From the NCBI GenBank assembly GCA_905221615.1, contig CAJNDT010000515.1, positions 62,001 to 126,000 of the forward strand: DNA of 64,000 nucleotides, written 5' to 3'. This DNA is from Symbiodinium sp. CCMP2592. Taxonomy: Eukaryota > Sar > Dinophyceae > Suessiales > Symbiodiniaceae. Position numbers and translations under genes: made by a program. The notes under the pieces were generated by a model that did not search any database, had not been told where the DNA came from, and saw only the letters and a list, made by a program, of their open reading frames with translations. Positions 5,685 through 24,820 of the stretch are shown here, piece by piece; position 1 is the first letter of the stretch; the number at the start of each line of letters is the position of its first letter.

Positions 5685-7075
5685 AACCCAGGGTTCGAAC
5701 TCCCGGGGGGCCCGGGGGGGGGGGGAGAACATATAATATAACTCCGGAACTCAGGGTTGAACCCTGGGTTCGAACTTCTCGAACCCAGGTTGAACCTGGA
5801 GTTTGAACTCTATGTTCAAACCCTGGGTTCGGGAACTCTATGTTCGAACCCGGGGTTCGGGAACTCTATGTTCGAACCCTGGGTTCGGGAACTCTATGTT
5901 CGAACCCGGGGTTTGGAGAACTCCACGTTCGAACCCCGGGTTCGGGAACTCCTCCCCCTTCCCAGAGAGTCCGAACCCTGGGTTCGGAACTCCATGCCCG
6001 AACCTGGGGTTTGGGGAACTCTATACCGGAACCCCGGGTTCCGGAACCCCCCCCGTCCCCCAGGGAGTTCGAACCCTGGGTTCGGGAACTCTATGTTGGA
6101 ACCCGGTGTTTGGGGAACTCTGTGTTGGAACCTCGGGTTCTGGAATTCGCCCCCCCCCTGGCGAGTTCGGGAACTCCACGTTTGGGGGGGGGCTGCGCCC
6201 CCCCCCAACCCCCCCGCTGTTTTTAGAAGCTTGCCGAAAACAAAGAAAAAGACTACCAATGACCAGTCCCTGCCACAAAAGAAGAAGAAGCCACACGAAA
6301 CCACTTTATCGGGGGTTTTGGCGAAGAAATAAAAGAAAGACAAAACAAAGAAAAAGATTGTCAATGACGAGGAGTCTTTCTTCTCAAGGGGGCTTCAGAA
6401 GGACATGAAGTCTCCTACGAGAATGCTAAAGGCGCGAACAAATGAACCGCCCAACCCCAGGTTCTAGACTCCCCCCAGAGTTCGAACGGGGTTCGAACAG
6501 AACACCAACAATCACCAAACAAAAGGAAAAGAAGCCACATAGAATCGCTTTGTGGGGGGTTTTGCGAATAAAATTACTGAGAGCACACTACAATGAGAAA
6601 CCACAAACTCAACCCTTAAGCACAAGCAAAAGAGAAGAAGACACACGAAATCGCTAATCGGGTTTTTGCAAAAAAAAAATAAAATGAGAGAACAAGAAGC
6701 AATGAGACAAGAGTTCGAACTCTGGGTTCGGAAACTCCATGTTCGAACTCTGGGTTCGGAAACTCAATGTTCGAAACCTGGGGACTCAACTCTTGAGGAC
6801 CGCCAGAGTTCGAACTCTGGGTTCGGAAACTCTATGTTCAAACCCTGGGTTCAAACTCTTCGCCTTTCAGAGTTCAACTCCAGATTCAACTCCAGTTCAA
6901 AGAAGTTCGGAGTTGAGTTCAACTTGGAGTTCAACTCAAAGTTCGAACCCAGGGTTCGGAGGGAACTTCGATGTTCGAACCCTGGGTTCGAGGCTCCGAA
7001 CTCTCAGTTCGGAGTTCCAGAACCCTGGGTTCGGAACTCTAAGTTCCAAACCTTGGGTTCGAACACCCCCCCAAA
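5685..7075. repeat. Array built on the GAACCC-N-GGGTTC palindrome
   Basis: Roughly 1.4 kb is made of interspersed and partly tandem copies of a unit near 28 bp, whose core is GAACCC(T/G)GGGTTC followed by GGGAACTCTATG. At 5806-5930 the unit repeats almost perfectly; elsewhere it is diluted by poly-C or poly-G runs (5708-5724, 6050-6060, 6148-6160, 6184-6210) and by a variant GAGTTCAACTC series (6870-6945). The core is self-complementary, so either strand can fold. All open frames through it (191, 201, 170 codons and others) are repeats in three frames with no amino-acid conservation pattern and are not genes. Confidence 0.9.
6277..6684. repeat. Three copies of a ~57-bp AAGAAG...GGGGTTTT repeat inside the array
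   Basis: Copies lie at about 6277-6334, 6521-6574 and 6628-6684. Each reads AAGAAG-CCACACGAAA-TC-CTTT followed by a run of G, then TTTTGGCGAA and AATAAAA. The sequence is unlike the palindromic unit around it. The spacing is uneven (about 244 and 107 bp), and segments of the palindromic array separate the copies, so the two repeat types are amplified together or one was carried into the other. Copy 3 is shortened in the G run and lengthened in the A run. Confidence 0.75.
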
Positions 7076-13500: not shown

Positions 13501-13698
13501 ACGATCTCTCTTTGGAATGGCCGCAACTGCTCCAGGACGCACAGCGCGCCATGCTGAAGTTAAAAAAGAGTGGAACGCTTCTCTCCTGTTTGTTTCGACT
13601 TGCGCACTTACAGCAGTCTCTTGCTCCGCTCCGCCAGGTACAGCTTCTCGCGACGGTGAGGGGCTTTTTGAACAGGCAGAGATTGCAGGATGCGCCTC

Positions 13699-14103
13699 TT
13701 TTTTCTTCCTCGCGAGCAATGCCTCGCTAAGCATTGCATCTACAAGCAATCTCTGCGGAAAAAAGATGTAGTTCTGCATGCGCTGCACCACACTTCTTTG
13801 AAATAGAAAACGCCAAATGTGTGTTTTTCTTTTGGTCAACTGTGTTTTCTAACAAGTGTCGAAAGAAGTAGCACTGCATTTCGGCACAAGATAACACAAC
13901 TAGCGTTATCATACATGCAACGCTTGCAAGCAAATAGTAAAGTTTTCACCCACCCTCCACGCCCTGGAGGAACGCTCGGTATCGGCCTTTTTCCTTCCTC
14001 GCGAGCAATGCCTCGCTAAGCACTGCATCTACAAGCAATCTCTGTGGAAAAAAATGTAGTTCTGCATGCGCTGCACTACACTTCTTTGAAACAGAATAGA
14101 AAA
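13699..14103. repeat. ~115-bp direct repeat downstream of the RT-RNase H remnant
   Basis: Copies at about 13699-13811 and 13987-14103 share CTTCCTCGCGAGCAATGCC, then GCATCTACAAGCAATCTCTG, ATGTAGTTCTGCATGCGCTG and CACTTCTTTGAAA, with only a few substitutions and short indels. About 175 bp separate them. They lie directly after the RNase H remnant, the same relative position as the B1 and B2 repeats of the 18.7-22.2 kb element, with which they share no sequence. They could be the B1 and B2 of a second split-direct-repeat element, or a simple duplication. Confidence 0.8.
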
Positions 14104-18723: not shown

Positions 18724-18882
18724 ATGAACAGGTATTGCTGCTTAGGCGTTCAAAACCCAGGTCATTTTTCCTGTAGTGGGCTGAGGTGCATGACGTATGC
18801 ACGCGCAGCTGTATCTCCTGTAGGCCTGCTGGCCCGAAACGCCCCAGCAAACAGTTGTAAAGTCTCTTGCTTGGGATGCCCC
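18724..18882 (+). repeat. A1, left repeat of the split-direct-repeat element
   Basis: 159 bp beginning ATGAACAGGTATTGCTGC and ending TTGGGATGCCCC. It matches A2 at 21795-21952 except for a T/C change and one extra T near 18763-18768. It carries the left element end and the first codons of the long frame. Confidence 0.9.
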
Positions 18883-21425
18883 CGCTGTGGTGGTGGCTTT
18901 CCTGTATCTGTGGGAGTGCAGCCTGGTTGCATGCTGTTGGCCGCCCTTTGGGAGAGGATAAGATGGCATGTTGCAGTGCAGGCTTTCAAGGGGATTGTGG
19001 AAGATCTTCACCGGCTCGGGTCTTCAGAAACCGACATAGGGCTCTTCGGCACAAGTTGTGTTCGAAGCTTCGAGCTGTCTTGGATTCCAGTTGCAATACG
19101 AAAGGTTGCCACACAGTTGCCCATGAAGCGGGAGTTCGCTGTGAAGAAACTCCTTTTGCTGAGGGTTACGCAGGATTCCTCACGACCTTCGTTGAGAAGT
19201 CCAAGCTTCCTTTCGCGAAAGCTGCGGCTTCAGGCGAGTCGAGGGGGCAAAGGCCGACGCGCCGCGACCTGTTCCCTTTGCCCCGCCTGCGGAGTTGGCC
19301 AGCTCACATTGCTGATGGAAAGCAGAGCCGCAATGGTCTTTTGGCTTGTGCGGACTTGTGCTGTGCAGCATTGAATCACTTGAGCGATGGCATGCCAGAA
19401 ACTTCGTGCTCTCGGCTGGGACAAGGCTGCACAGCTGCCCAGCGGGCTGTGCAAGAGCATGTCTGTCAGCGAGTGGTCCGGTTTTGCACCCGCCTCAACT
19501 CCATCAGTGACGGGCCGTTCTCCCACAAGGGATCGCTGCAGACTTTTGGGCGAAACAGCGCAGGCTACGAACGCATCCGTGGTGGCGACGTGGACCTGCC
19601 GACTCGCGCAGCTACGTGTGACCCTGGAAACCTCGTGGATCCTGGACTGTGGGCAACTATTTGTAGGCCAGGAGCTATCTTTGAAGAGCCTCAGTCTTTC
19701 CAGCAGTGTTTGGGCTTCACCAAGACTTTCGGCATGGAGAGAAAGGAGTATATTGATCTTACTTGCAGAGAGCTGCGGTGCAAGAAGCTCCGCCTACGCA
19801 CGCAGGTGTTTGGTGTTGCTGGGGTTTTTGCAGCGGCAAAGAGCACCAAAGGCCGTCAGCGGAAAATCTGGGACGGCTCGGTCCTCTCGGAATTTGCTGC
19901 TCAGCCTCCTAAGCCTTATCGGCTGGCAAATCCAAGCTCTTTTCTCGACATCGTGGTCCGTCGTGGTGAACGCTTGTACATGTCAAAGCGAGATGCCGCT
20001 ACTTACTTTGATTTGCTTGCGGCCCCCTCAGATCTGCAGCCTTGGTTTGGCCAGGAGCCTGTAGCACTGCACGAGCTTTTATCACAAGGAAGATTCGCAC
20101 TGGCGGAAGTCATTGGCTTTGTTGACGACCTTGCTCAGGGAGAAGGCTTGTTAGCGCAGACGCTGCTTTTTCCTGTGCATGCTGCTTGGCCCATGGGTTT
20201 CAGCTGGTCCTCCTGCGTGGCGCAGTCGAACACCATCGGCTTGTTGACGGATGCTGGCGTCGATCCTCGTTGCATCCTCAGCCTGGACCACGCGTTGCCT
20301 GGCTCTCAGAAGGAACTGTGTGCCGTGGCCACTGACGACACCTTGTTCTTTCATCGCTGCCCGGCTAGGGGGCGTCGTACATTGTCTAAGCTGGACAAAG
20401 TGTTTGACAAGAGCGGTGTCGCCAGGAACGTCAACAAAGACATCTCGCTTGCAGCTGAAATGACTGCGCTCGGATGTGACATCTCAGCTGAGCCGCCTTT
20501 GGTGGAGCCGTGCAAGCAGAAACTGGCCAAGTTTGTGGCCGCTGTGTGTGACTTACTGGAGGCCCCCGCTGCCAGCCCTGCGGCGGTTAACAGCGTCTTG
20601 GGTACAGCTCAGTGGTTTTGTCTACTGCAACGCAGCTTGTTCAGCATCTTCAATGCAATCTACAGGTTCGTGCAGATGGAGCCCTCATGGAAGCCAGCTC
20701 TTCTGCCTGCCGCTGTGAAAAACGAGCTGCTCGTGTGCTTGGTACTTTCGCCGTTGCTCCCTGCAGCTTTGGACAGGCCCTTTCTCCCTGAGCTCTTGGC
20801 CTGTGACGCTGCGCCGCAGTACGGCTTTGGTGTGTGTTCACTCGCATGTGGGCGCAAGCTCGTTGAAGAAGTGGGTCGCTACTCTGAGCGGCGAGGTGAC
20901 TACGTGCGTTTGCAAGCTGCAGAAGGGGACGAGCCTGAAGTGCCCAGGCTTGGAGTTCCACGGAAGCTGCCGTTTTGCAAGGGCGACTTCAAGCCTCTCA
21001 TTTCCACTCCGGCCAAGTGGCCCGCCCACTCCGGAGTTCTGGAGTGCCATGGAGTACTGCTTACGGTGAAGTGGGTGTGCCGCAGTCGCGCACGACAGGG
21101 CCATCGGGTCGTCGTTCTTGTGGATGCCAAAGCTGCCATCGGCAGCATCAGCAAAGGCCGAAGCTCAGCAAACAGCTTGCGACGGGTGCTTCGCAGCATA
21201 GCTGCGCACTCCCTGGCCTGCAATCTTTTGTTGCGGCTCGTGTACATCCCTTCGGAATCAAATCCGGCGGATGGCCCATCCCGAGGAAAAAGAGCTGTTT
21301 ATCCTGTGAAGAGAAACTTCCTCAAAACATCCAGAAGGCCCATGCGGGTTCAATTAGTTTTCATCAAAGTCAGAGACTTCTGCCGCTGTCGCTCTCCTTT
21401 AGGGCACCGGGCTCTTCGCGAGTGA
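18867..21425 (+). CDS. Reverse transcriptase-RNase H protein of the split-direct-repeat element (852 aa)
   Basis: A single long open frame whose ATG lies inside A1; the true start may be elsewhere. Residues 1 to about 250 are unrecognised. The RT follows: motif A as KRDAATYFDLL (D376), motif B as WPMGFSWSSCVAQ (about residues 440-452), motif C as ATDDTLFF (D490, D491) and motif D as MTALGCDIS. RNase H follows with D647 (LACDAAPQYGFG), E726 (LECHG), D753 (LVDAKAA) and D802 (NPADGPSRG). All expected catalytic acids are present and no stop interrupts the frame, in contrast to the other retroelements of the window. It would copy the element RNA into DNA and remove the RNA. No gag, methyltransferase or tyrosine recombinase domain is seen in it. 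The frame stops 221 bp before B1. Confidence 0.85.
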   Translation: MLGMPPLWWWLSCICGSAAWLHAVGRPLGEDKMACCSAGFQGDCGRSSPARVFRNRHRALRHKLCSKLRAVLDSSCNTKGCHTVAHEAGVRCEETPFAEGYAGFLTTFVEKSKLPFAKAAASGESRGQRPTRRDLFPLPRLRSWPAHIADGKQSRNGLLACADLCCAALNHLSDGMPETSCSRLGQGCTAAQRAVQEHVCQRVVRFCTRLNSISDGPFSHKGSLQTFGRNSAGYERIRGGDVDLPTRAATCDPGNLVDPGLWATICRPGAIFEEPQSFQQCLGFTKTFGMERKEYIDLTCRELRCKKLRLRTQVFGVAGVFAAAKSTKGRQRKIWDGSVLSEFAAQPPKPYRLANPSSFLDIVVRRGERLYMSKRDAATYFDLLAAPSDLQPWFGQEPVALHELLSQGRFALAEVIGFVDDLAQGEGLLAQTLLFPVHAAWPMGFSWSSCVAQSNTIGLLTDAGVDPRCILSLDHALPGSQKELCAVATDDTLFFHRCPARGRRTLSKLDKVFDKSGVARNVNKDISLAAEMTALGCDISAEPPLVEPCKQKLAKFVAAVCDLLEAPAASPAAVNSVLGTAQWFCLLQRSLFSIFNAIYRFVQMEPSWKPALLPAAVKNELLVCLVLSPLLPAALDRPFLPELLACDAAPQYGFGVCSLACGRKLVEEVGRYSERRGDYVRLQAAEGDEPEVPRLGVPRKLPFCKGDFKPLISTPAKWPAHSGVLECHGVLLTVKWVCRSRARQGHRVVVLVDAKAAIGSISKGRSSANSLRRVLRSIAAHSLACNLLLRLVYIPSESNPADGPSRGKRAVYPVKRNFLKTSRRPMRVQLVFIKVRDFCRCRSPLGHRALRE

Positions 21426-21646
21426 GGCTTGGGACCTGCTCAAGTTTTGCCTTCGACTGGCAGTGGGCGATGCCAGGAGCTGTGCTCTGGAGGGTGGGCT
21501 CACGATCTGCGCCCATTCGTGATCACTCCTTTTCTGTCGAAGTGTATAGACACTTCTGTGTATCTGACTGCGCACCATTTGAGGGTGCATAAGTTTTGTG
21601 GGGTTTTTCCGGCCGCTTAGAGGTGTTGCGTCCAGTGCGGGGTGTT

Positions 21647-21797
21647 GGGCTTTTTGGAAGCACTGAAGCCTTAAAGGCCTGTGCTTGCTCGCACTCTGTG
21701 GAACACGTCTCTAAATCCCAGCGGCACGAAGTCCCAAAACAGTCTGCATTGTCGTCTTAGACGTCAGCAAGTGCAGGAGAGCCGCTTTGCAGCAATG
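21647..21797 (+). repeat. B1, internal repeat of the split-direct-repeat element
   Basis: 151 bp from GGGCTTTTTGGAAGCACTG to GCTTTGCAGCAATG, identical to B2 by eye. Its last ATG is also the first ATG of A2, so B1 and A2 overlap by three bases. The B1-A2 unit equals the junction a circular intermediate would have. Confidence 0.9.
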
Positions 21798-21952
21798 AAC
21801 AGGTATTGCTGCTTAGGCGTTCAAAACCCAGGTCACTTTCCTGTAGTGGGCTGAGGTGCATGACGTATGCACGCGCAGCTGTATCTCCTGTAGGCCTGCT
21901 GGCCCGAAACGCCCCAGCAAACAGTTGTAAAGTCTCTTGCTTGGGATGCCCC
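21795..21952 (+). repeat. A2, internal repeat of the split-direct-repeat element
   Basis: 158-bp copy of A1 directly joined to B1. A 51-bp pyrimidine-rich spacer (21953-22003, beginning TCCCTTTTTTCCCTCCC) separates it from B2. The spacer is not found next to A1 or B1. Confidence 0.9.
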
Positions 21953-22003
21953 TCCCTTTTTTCCCTCCCTTTTCGCATCCCTAGCAGGTTCCTCGTTTGC
22001 AGG

Positions 22004-22154
22004 GGGCTTTTTGGAAGCACTGAAGCCTTAAAGGCCTGTGCTTGCTCGCACTCTGTGGAACACGTCTCTAAATCCCAGCGGCACGAAGTCCCAAAACAGT
22101 CTGCATTGTCGTCTTAGACGTCAGCAAGTGCAGGAGAGCCGCTTTGCAGCAATG
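22004..22154 (+). repeat. B2, right repeat of the split-direct-repeat element
   Basis: Second 151-bp B copy and the right end of the element. It ends in CAGCAATG and is followed by TTGTATCCAGGG of the flank. The terminal ATG is shared with the position where A1 starts on the left. Confidence 0.9.
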
Positions 22155-22979
22155 TTGTATCCAGGGCAGGGCCTGCAGCTGCCGCAGACCTCAATGACGG
22201 CATTGCTGCTGTGTTAGCAGCTGCCAGCACACGTGCGCATCGTGGTGCAGTATCCAGTCGGGAGCCCAATATGCCAGCCAGAGAACGCGCCGCAGGCGGA
22301 CCTTGCCTGCTGCCTGGTACGTAGCTTCGGCCTGCATTAAATAATAACCTAGATCGACACAAATTCTGGGGTTTATGGCAGGCGCTATCGACGATCCGGG
22401 CAGACCCCCACCCGCTCAAACTTGCAATGTCCGCCATATGGCCGCAGCCGCCTTCAAGCCCGCGGGACAGTGCATACAGCATGCCATGCTCGCGAGCTCG
22501 TGTAAGATGGTTGTTTGCTGCGGCCGGGATCGTTCGGACTTGTGCTTGTGTCGCAATGCAATTTTTGGCAAATGCAAAAAAATTGCAGCGTCAGTGTTTG
22601 TAGTGCTTGAATTAACTGCGGCTTTCTTCCCTTGGTGAGGGTCTTCCTTTGCCACTCGGACCGCGCACCTGCAGGTACCGCCGCAACCCTGCTGCCTTCG
22701 GACGGCCCCGACACGCCCTCTGCCTTTGGAACCTGCCTTGGCCCGTTCCTCGCAAAAGGCCCACATTTCCAAGCGATGCTGCTGAAGAGCCTGTTCCACG
22801 CGGGTTTCGTGATCTCAGGCCGAAGGCCATGCGGATCCATCCCATAATGGATCGAAGGTGGTAGCAAAATATTGAATTTTTGTAGTGCTTACCGTGCACT
22901 TTGACTTCTGGGACAAAGTGCTTTCTTCATGGTGGGTTTTTGTCAGGGCATTGTATTGTCCTAGTATTGTCTTCTTGTC
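22155..22979. other. Interval right of the element, no assignable gene
   Basis: Minus-strand frames of 122 (22114-22482, partly inside B2) and 137 codons (22454-22867) are open. They lack recognised motifs, and the first runs into the mobile element. The stretch MDPHGLRPEITKPAW at about 22800-22845 (minus) has a protein-like look but no homologue I can name. A possible exon cannot be excluded. Confidence 0.3.
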
Positions 22980-23533: not shown

Positions 23534-24820
23534 ATGCAGCAGTGAATGCACCCAAGATTCACGATCGGAGGCTTTCAGGTGGGCAGGTTGCCCATGCTGC
23601 CCGCACAAGTGACCGCATCTGAAATTGCAGGTAGCTTACTCACAGCATTGAATTTTGTTAATATTCCGCATTGGGGGGCCTCAGGGCGGCGTGGGCAGGC
23701 TGCGCGCAAAGACCCTCTAATCGAGAATGCTGGGCGCGTTCACTGCTGCAGGCAACTTGCCGGAACCATTGTTAGGCGGAAGGACGCAAACCGGCTCACA
23801 GGGGATTCCAGTCAACCAAGCGCTGGCCTTGTGGAGGCGAACCAAGGTGGCAGCTTCCTTAGCCCAACGTCCGCCGACCTCGAGTCCGAAAACGACAAGG
23901 CGACAGCGTCGGCTGCGGTCGAAACACTCCTGTGCGCGTTCACTGCTGCGGGCAGCGTGCGTGCAACGTTTTTCAATGTTTTTCATTCCTCCATCCACTC
24001 GGGATTCTTGGGTGCACTCACTGCTGCGGGCAATTTGCCCGCACTGCCCAAGGCCCTCTAATCGGGAATGTTGGGTGCATCCATGGCAAGCCGAGCACAC
24101 CGCTTCAAGGCGCTTGCAATCAAGCGATACCGGGTGCATTCACTGTCCGCACCCCCGAAGGGCCCTCCAATTGGAAATCTTCATTCAGTGTACAAAGTAC
24201 CGCATTAACGCCCTCCAATCGAGAGTCTTGGGTGCATATACTGCTGCGGGCAGCGTGCCCGCACCCCCGTACAGTAGGGCCCTCCACTCGGGAATCTTGG
24301 GTGCATTCACAGCTCGGCAGCCTTCCCACCGCCGGCACCGCCTTAAGGCCCTTCAATCGAGAATCTTAGGTGCATCACTGTTGCGGGCAATTTGCCCGCA
24401 CCGCCAGAGGACCCTCCAATCGGGAATCTTGGATGCATTCACTGCTGCGGAAATCCCTCCCGCGCCGCCTTAGGGCCCTCGAATCGGGAAATATCGGGAA
24501 TCTTGGGCGCCAGCCCGTAAACCTTCAAATCGATGCATTCACTGCTGCGGCCTGCCGCACCCCCGATTCGCTGCGTGCTGCGGGTAGCCTGCCCGCACCC
24601 CACCCTCCAATCGGGTATCTTGGTACATTCACTGTTGGGAAGAACCCTTCAATCGGGAACGTTGGGTACATTCACTGCTGCGGGCGTCCTGCCCGCATCT
24701 ATGTAGGGCCCTCCAATAGGGAATCTCGTGCTACGGGCAGCCTGTCCACACTCCCGTGCAACCCTCCAGTCGGGAATCTTGGGTGCATTCACTGGCCGGG
24801 GCACGGGGAACAGCGTGAAG
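22980..24820. repeat. Head-to-head array of a ~75-80-bp repeat with a CTG run
   Basis: The forward unit reads about TTCACTGCTGCGGGCA, TTGCCCGCACC, GGGCCCTCCAATCGGGAA and TCTTGGGTGCA. Around a dozen or more forward copies run from about 23713 to 24800 with variable truncation. Between about 23020 and 23565 the same words occur as reverse complements (for example GCCCGCAGCAATAAATCC near 23098 and GCAGTGAATGCACCC near 23541). A pure CTG run lies at about 23496-23533, next to the inverted CACTGCTGC word. Long open frames here (up to 248 codons) are translations of the repeat and are not genes. Confidence 0.85.
23496..23533. repeat. CTG/CAG trinucleotide run
   Basis: About 12 to 13 uninterrupted CTG triplets, preceded by a broken CTGCTGCTGCCGCTG. 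On the complementary strand this is CAG. It abuts the inverted repeat word GCAGTGAATGCACCC, so it most likely grew from the CTGCTG already present in the array unit. Confidence 0.9.

Follow-up and report, generated by a model that had tools for sequence, protein, structure and literature searches.

Structure of the element

The window analysed in this study is a stretch of 64,000 nucleotides (nt) of Symbiodinium sp. CCMP2592 (GenBank assembly GCA_905221615.1, contig CAJNDT010000515.1, positions 62,001 to 126,000 of the forward strand). It carries a retroelement with split direct repeats in the order A1-ORF-B1-A2-B2 (ORF, open reading frame), one member of a family in which no tyrosine recombinase (YR) was found and which we lean towards reading as a DIRS-related lineage supplied with a recombinase in trans. 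The features of the element lie on the plus strand. The left terminal repeat A1 (18725-18882) starts at the core T (18725) and holds the start of the ORF, B1 (21647-21796) ends at the internal core T, and A2 (21796-21952, delimited by direct-repeat comparison) is separated from B2 by a pyrimidine-rich stretch of 51 nt (21953-22003; 32 nt in the copy L010). The right terminal repeat B2 (22004-22153) ends at the core T (22153), where the right target flank (22153-22161) begins, with the core T at position 0 and a further T at +7 (22160). The inverted repeat at the B1|A2 junction, GCAGCAAT-GAACAGGT-ATTGCTGC, has no strand and occupies 21789-21812, with the crossover at T21796. Comparison of the A pair (18724-18882 versus 21795-21952) gave one substitution and one 1-nt indel, and the B pair (21647-21797 versus 22004-22154) was identical; repeats of such length and identity do not arise by chance. 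The split direct repeats proposed here in an initial annotation, which was made from the letters of the window alone, were confirmed by this comparison. Alignment with other copies placed the edges of the element generally at T18725 and T22153, with A18724 and G22154 being flank bases that coincide with those of the element.

The single long stop-free frame between A1 and B1 (18867-21425) encodes Pol, with 852 codons from a TTG start and the first ATG at 18876. It comprises an N-terminal helical region (19005-19781, residues 47-305), a reverse transcriptase (RT) domain (19779-20666, about residues 305-600, with D376 and D490-D491 invariant in an alignment of 17 rows) and an RNase H domain (20784-21302, about residues 640-812, with D647, E726 and D753 invariant and NPAD in 15/17 rows). 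Against Pfam, the window ORF gave a sub-threshold match to PF00336 and no other (E 0.0005). Among 17 family members at E<=1, PF00336 matched 15 (best 0.0005) and RVT_1 three (best 0.00063), and the integrase and DNA methylase families matched none. The AlphaFold model of the ORF (predicted local distance difference test score, pLDDT, 80.7; predicted template modelling score, pTM, 0.77) was closest among solved structures to the RT-RNase H of cauliflower mosaic virus (CaMV; E 3.2e-11), and the top 50 Foldseek matches listed were CaMV, viral and retroviral RTs, in a comparison without Penelope references. About 250 conserved residues precede the RT; the N-terminal 260 residues modelled alone were all-helical (pLDDT 70.2, pTM 0.53) and had no fold match among solved structures at E<=0.001. 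A hidden Markov model (HMM) of the family matched both DIRS-type Pols of YR-bearing elements in the same genome (E 1.7e-38 and 1.6e-34), a relationship drawn from HMM comparison within this genome. No separate gag ORF was found in the family.

Copies of the family in the genome

Searches covered the 1.098 Gb assembly in 5383 contigs, in which the dinoflagellate spliced-leader motif had 429 exact matches and its backward control 0, which marks the host as a dinoflagellate. The B repeat matched nine places in the genome: each of four elements has two, and the ninth belongs to a B-A fragment on contig C4974. The three further elements lay in different flanks and shared 98.9, 99.4 and 99.5% identity with the copy in the window; late in Pol, three of these four close copies are interrupted by a stop or by an early end of the frame. 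A Pol protein search, in which 53 of 1302 first-look candidates were scored, gave 57 matches, and 30 loci (the four close copies and L018-L043) were tested for repeat order. The complete order A1-ORF-B1-A2-B2 was present in 24/30 and was not obtained in L025, L034, L035, L039, L040 and L042, of which L039 and L042 represent two parts of the same locus. The circle-type B-A junction postulated by the initial annotation is supported by this repeat order in relatives.

The 24 elements of full order were 3.0-3.9 kb long, and in 19 of them a frame of 777 codons or more was open on the plus strand. Both repeat pairs were at least 97% identical in 21/24 elements, and therefore many insertions look young. 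Lineages with precise ends were 39-52% identical to the window protein. Between eight pairs of lineages, codon positions 1, 2 and 3 differed by 0.37-0.43, 0.28-0.31 and 0.62-0.66, respectively, a pattern as under purifying selection. A scan of viral contigs for relatives found none. In L029 (contig C46) the B-A unit is iterated with a period of 316 bp, with three hairpin junctions in one element.

The core T and the inverted arms

The left and right junctions read ATG/ATG in the window copy and in L010, TTG/ATT in L009 and CTG/ATT in L011, and the internal junction reads ATG in all four. At the left junction these four close copies therefore follow the pattern NTG and at the right junction ATN, and the shared base is one T. 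The ATG noted initially at all three junctions is thus true of the window copy, but as crossover core it gave way to a single T, the base common to the close copies and across the 24 elements; listing the junction trinucleotides across copies, a check proposed with that annotation, yielded no common trinucleotide and left the split-repeat reading untouched. The internal junction was AA-T-GA in 23/24 elements (L024 has A at the internal core), and the core T was found at the left end in 24/24 and at the right end in 23/24 (L032 has A at the right core).

Inverted arms of 5-8 nt lie around the T in 23/24 elements and enclose 8 or 9 nt of spacer. In 18 distinct junctions 128/144 arm cells were paired, compared with a mean of 110 and a maximum of 122 in shuffles of the right arm (0/2000 reached 128), a comparison between related rows whose kinship the shuffling does not remove. 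The arms switch together (GCAAT/ATTGC, AGAAT/ATTCT, GGAAT/ATTCC), and 6-8 of 8 positions pair at the internal junction versus 1-6 of 8 at the ends of the elements. The B1|A2 junction is a conserved, covarying inverted repeat. Its spacer stands at the left end in 24/24 elements, and the right end is then followed by target DNA.

A pattern for the commonest arm types had 48 matches in the genome versus 3 for the reversed control, with 22 in family members, 19 in another repeat and 7 unassigned. The other repeat carries the junction-like sequence CAGCAATGATTACAGGATTGCTG, with arms, a 9-nt spacer and T-GA; no Pol ORF was found in the two of its loci that were read (L051 with 2 matches and L052 with 1, the other 16 matches lying elsewhere). 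An Rfam scan gave one match far below cut-off (E 3.3).

Target sites and empty sites

In the joined flanks of the 24 insertions T was present at 0 in 23/24, at +7 in 24/24, at +6 in 20/24, at +8 in 19/24 and at -8 in 18/24. AGGG lay within 7 nt to the left or 8 nt to the right of the core in 10/24 and CCCT in 0/24, with a background for either of about 0.09 per 16-nt span. The 14 insertions without adjoining AGGG had T at +7 in 14/14 (background T 0.26); four of them (L018, L028, L041, L043) are TTTAGGG-like by eye, and the other ten all have T at +7. Across these flanks TTTAGGG-type repeats are preferred, in one orientation, but are not required, because the window copy sits in none. Such repeats were also found in the wider flanks, in both orientations.

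Empty sites were sought with the joined flanks of 11 elements (that of the window and ten others), and nine paralogous stretches were fetched. In the genome, the joined flank of the window copy matched its own two halves and nothing else, so that the 20-bp empty site predicted initially for this copy was not recovered, but paralogous stretches span the join for 5/11 elements (L041, L021, L027, L033, L024). For L041 the empty site matched exactly over 65 nt to the left and 15 nt to the right of the join and was 95% identical overall. The other four were more diverged but kept the register, and in every stretch except L061 a single T stood at the core where the filled site has two; the join of L027 agrees with its paralogues by eye. 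Comparison of filled and empty sites shows that insertion takes place at one T, with neither a loss of bases nor a longer duplication apparent, and the lack of a target-site duplication that had been predicted held to this extent, since none beyond one base was seen.

The fold of the RT/RNase H is of the LTR-retroelement (LTR, long terminal repeat) and pararetrovirus type, as would suit an ordinary LTR retrotransposon or a decayed tandem. That explanation is hardly credible, however, given the split order in 24/30 loci and the absence of full LTRs at both ends and of a DDE integrase domain in the elements searched, and the 4-6 bp duplication that it calls for is contradicted by the empty sites.

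A target hairpin was rejected as a general signal after folding 22/24 joined flanks: two were outliers (L027, z -5.5; L011, z -3.0) and the others had z from -2.4 to +1.5 versus mononucleotide shuffles. L027 (contig C5231) lies in the middle of a palindromic repeat, of which further copies were found elsewhere (L057-L059).

Search for a recombinase

PF00589 matched none of the 17 family members at E<=1. Four YR queries from the genome were compared with all six frames of the 24 elements (2331 stop-free frames from these elements and two controls) and gave no match to the elements at E<=1; the two DIRS-type control YRs found each other (E about 1e-17), and the queries L044 and L050 found neither control, so that their reach is not shown, which counts against the reading preferred below. 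The second longest plus-strand frame was at most 238 codons, except for a 304-codon frame in L043 that is probably the other piece of a broken Pol, and the longest antisense frame had 291 codons. Genome-wide, 66 PF00589 matches were listed, with 145 of 267 candidates scored, and none of the 57 listed Pol matches lay within 16 kb of any of these; the exception, outside both lists, is a decayed family member in L050 about 4.6 kb from the YR ORF of another gene family.

A recombinase might be present and have escaped recognition, in the N-terminal region of the ORF or in longer members outside those read. The conserved residues ahead of the RT and the fractions of candidates scored (53/1302 and 145/267) leave room for it. 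Tyrosine recombinases carry the residue pattern R...HxxR...Y, which the invariant residues of the N-terminal region do not follow. This explanation is made improbable by that mismatch, by the all-helical model without a fold match at the threshold given and by the 16-kb separation of the listed Pol and PF00589 matches, the decayed member in L050 excepted.

Integration could also have proceeded without any tyrosine recombinase, if a host nuclease and repair, or Pol, opened T-N6-T sites and the complementary DNA (cDNA) were joined with a 1-base overlap or duplication. The element without a detected recombinase, the single shared base and the conserved helical N-terminal region, which has no assigned function, would all accord with such a route. 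We nevertheless regard it as unlikely, since precise ends across lineages of 39-52% identity, and the conserved internal T with its covarying arms, fit a site-specific recombinase better than repair.

A family of tyrosine-recombinase ORFs of 270-290 residues (L044, L050, L054), apparently with many near-identical copies as judged by equal scores, was encountered in the genome. In L044 the YR lies on the minus strand and a coiled-coil-like ORF on the plus strand, and a coiled-coil-like ORF stands opposite the YR in each of the two distinct loci read. The family is a possible source of recombinase or a multicopy host gene. The pair of YR and coiled-coil-like ORF (L044, L050) was rejected as a possible trans donor, as the second copy (L054) proved to be a 99.9% duplication of the whole stretch and so did not reveal its ends. 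Contig C5051 holds five phage-integrase matches (best three, E 3e-44 to 7e-26) and is perhaps a bacterial contaminant.

Comparison with known elements

SymbioDIRS-Dnmt3 of Symbiodinium (PMC5890265) shares with the family the A-coding-B-A-B order, a divergent DIRS-type RT/RNase H and a dinoflagellate host, but it carries a DNA methyltransferase (DNMT) and a tyrosine recombinase ORF, neither of which was found in the family; in particular, no cytosine methyltransferase was found in Pol. Ngaro, PAT and VIPER are alike in the order A1-ORFs-B1A2B2 and in RT and RNase H, and they are described as YR elements (PMC8547959, PMC6681497), whereas no YR was found here. For DIRS1-like elements the published model (PMC3266345) likewise has a circle with a short junction and no target duplication; those elements have inverted terminal repeats with an internal complementary region (ICR), mostly a 3-bp junction, and a YR, in contrast to the split direct repeats and one-base core of the family, in which neither a YR nor a 3-bp junction common to both ends was found. 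SART1Bm resembles the family in its preference for telomere-type repeats, but is a non-LTR element (PMC7265360); the family has an LTR-type RT/RNase H and split repeats and inserts outside such repeats too.

Two YR-bearing comparators were read in the same genome. One (L049, L047 and L045), about 7.4 kb long, is an RT, DNMT and YR element, probably of the SymbioDIRS-Dnmt3 type, and the other (L048 and L046) combines RT and YR. Each has a further long frame at the gag position, and both exceed the family elements in size, carry their own split repeats and differ from the family at the junction. At the junction of the second, arms of 6 nt (TGAACT/AGTTCA) flank a 9-nt spacer, as in the family (read by eye).

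A tyrosine recombinase defines the DIRS order. Split repeats, a DIRS-type RT/RNase H and the lack of a target-site duplication were all found in the family and an encoded YR was not; therefore it is by definition not a DIRS member. The original assignment to that order accordingly stood as to the split repeats and the homology of RT/RNase H with DIRS-type Pols of the same genome, and failed on the recombinase. Apart from the missing enzyme, the family would appear to work like a split-repeat DIRS element. A literature search, limited to titles and abstract openings with many subscription papers beyond reach, found no YR-less split-repeat retroelement; the family may have an entry in Repbase with a different name.

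Proposed model of integration

Tyrosine-recombinase core sites (Cre, Xer, lambda) consist of arms around a spacer, with crossover at the arm edge. The family's arms of about 7-8 nt, spacer of 8-9 nt and arm-edge crossover look like such a core site. With somewhat better than even confidence, we read the family as a DIRS-related lineage that has no recombinase of its own and uses one in trans at this recombinase-like site; supply in trans is inferred from the lack of a detectable enzyme in the element. RNA of the element would be copied by its own RT/RNase H, with B1A2 serving as the template that joins the cDNA ends into a circle. A recombinase from another element or gene would then bind both arms, cut beside the left-arm T and join the circle to the target T, so that the left end would keep the spacer of the element and the right end the target sequence.

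Several observations weigh against this reading. No enzyme is linked to the family, and circles were not observed in this analysis of genome sequence. A complete tyrosine-recombinase reaction on double-stranded DNA would be expected to place the spacer at one end or the other, whereas it lay at the left in 24/24 elements. In neither YR-bearing comparator, of which only these two were read, one copy each, does the crossover have the position seen in the family: that of L048 and L046 lies in mid-spacer at TT, and at the junction of the RT, DNMT and YR element no shared core was visible. Among the empty sites, the core position is C in the stretch L061, the match for L021 extends only some 15 nt beyond the join and has a 5-nt gap close by, and an indel interrupts the L033 paralogues at a distance of about 5 nt from it; moreover, a core of one base would look the same as a target duplication of one base. 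In seven pairs of close copies, third codon positions had no consistent excess.

The constant left spacer suggests that the outcome of one strand is favoured, by single-strand exchange or by biased repair. Insertion of integron cassettes proceeds by single-strand exchange resolved by replication. In a similar arrangement, a single-stranded cDNA circle could fold the B|A junction into a hairpin, and a recombinase acting in trans could join the top strand only, at the T of T-N6-T sites such as those in TTTAGGG repeats, with resolution by replication. The 24/24 left ends that keep the element spacer, with target sequence at the right ends, the crossover at the 5' edge of the loop and the covarying stem would all be expected of such a process. 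A parallel comes from DIRS1-like elements, for which Table 3 of PMC3266345 gives unequal ends in 10/28, 8 of them with a 3-nt junction, and in 7/8 of these elements with unequal end trinucleotides the start is the complement of the junction, which is thus kept at the start. Arms and a spacer of 8-9 bp are just as compatible with a double-stranded site, the same ends would result from biased mismatch repair and no single-stranded form was seen, and we consider single-strand exchange of this kind quite doubtful.

A lineage that lacks the YR, is diverse and seems to have been active recently would demonstrate that replication of the split-repeat kind is separable from the enzyme of integration. 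With a covarying junction, a crossover of one base and a T-N6-T target, the way in which split-repeat retroelements integrate is open to direct test, and these features would account for the sizeable share of copies that sit in telomere-type repeats of the genome.

Other repeats in the window

Three further repeat regions were recorded in the window. Tandem and interspersed repeats of about 28 bp, of the GAACTCTATGTTCGAACCCTGGGTTCGG type, occupy 5791-7061. Direct repeat pairs 288-289 bp apart, with an identity of 94-96%, lie at 13698-14096, and repeats of 44-83 nt with a ACTGCTGC core, mostly 200-230 bp apart, lie at 23730-24723.

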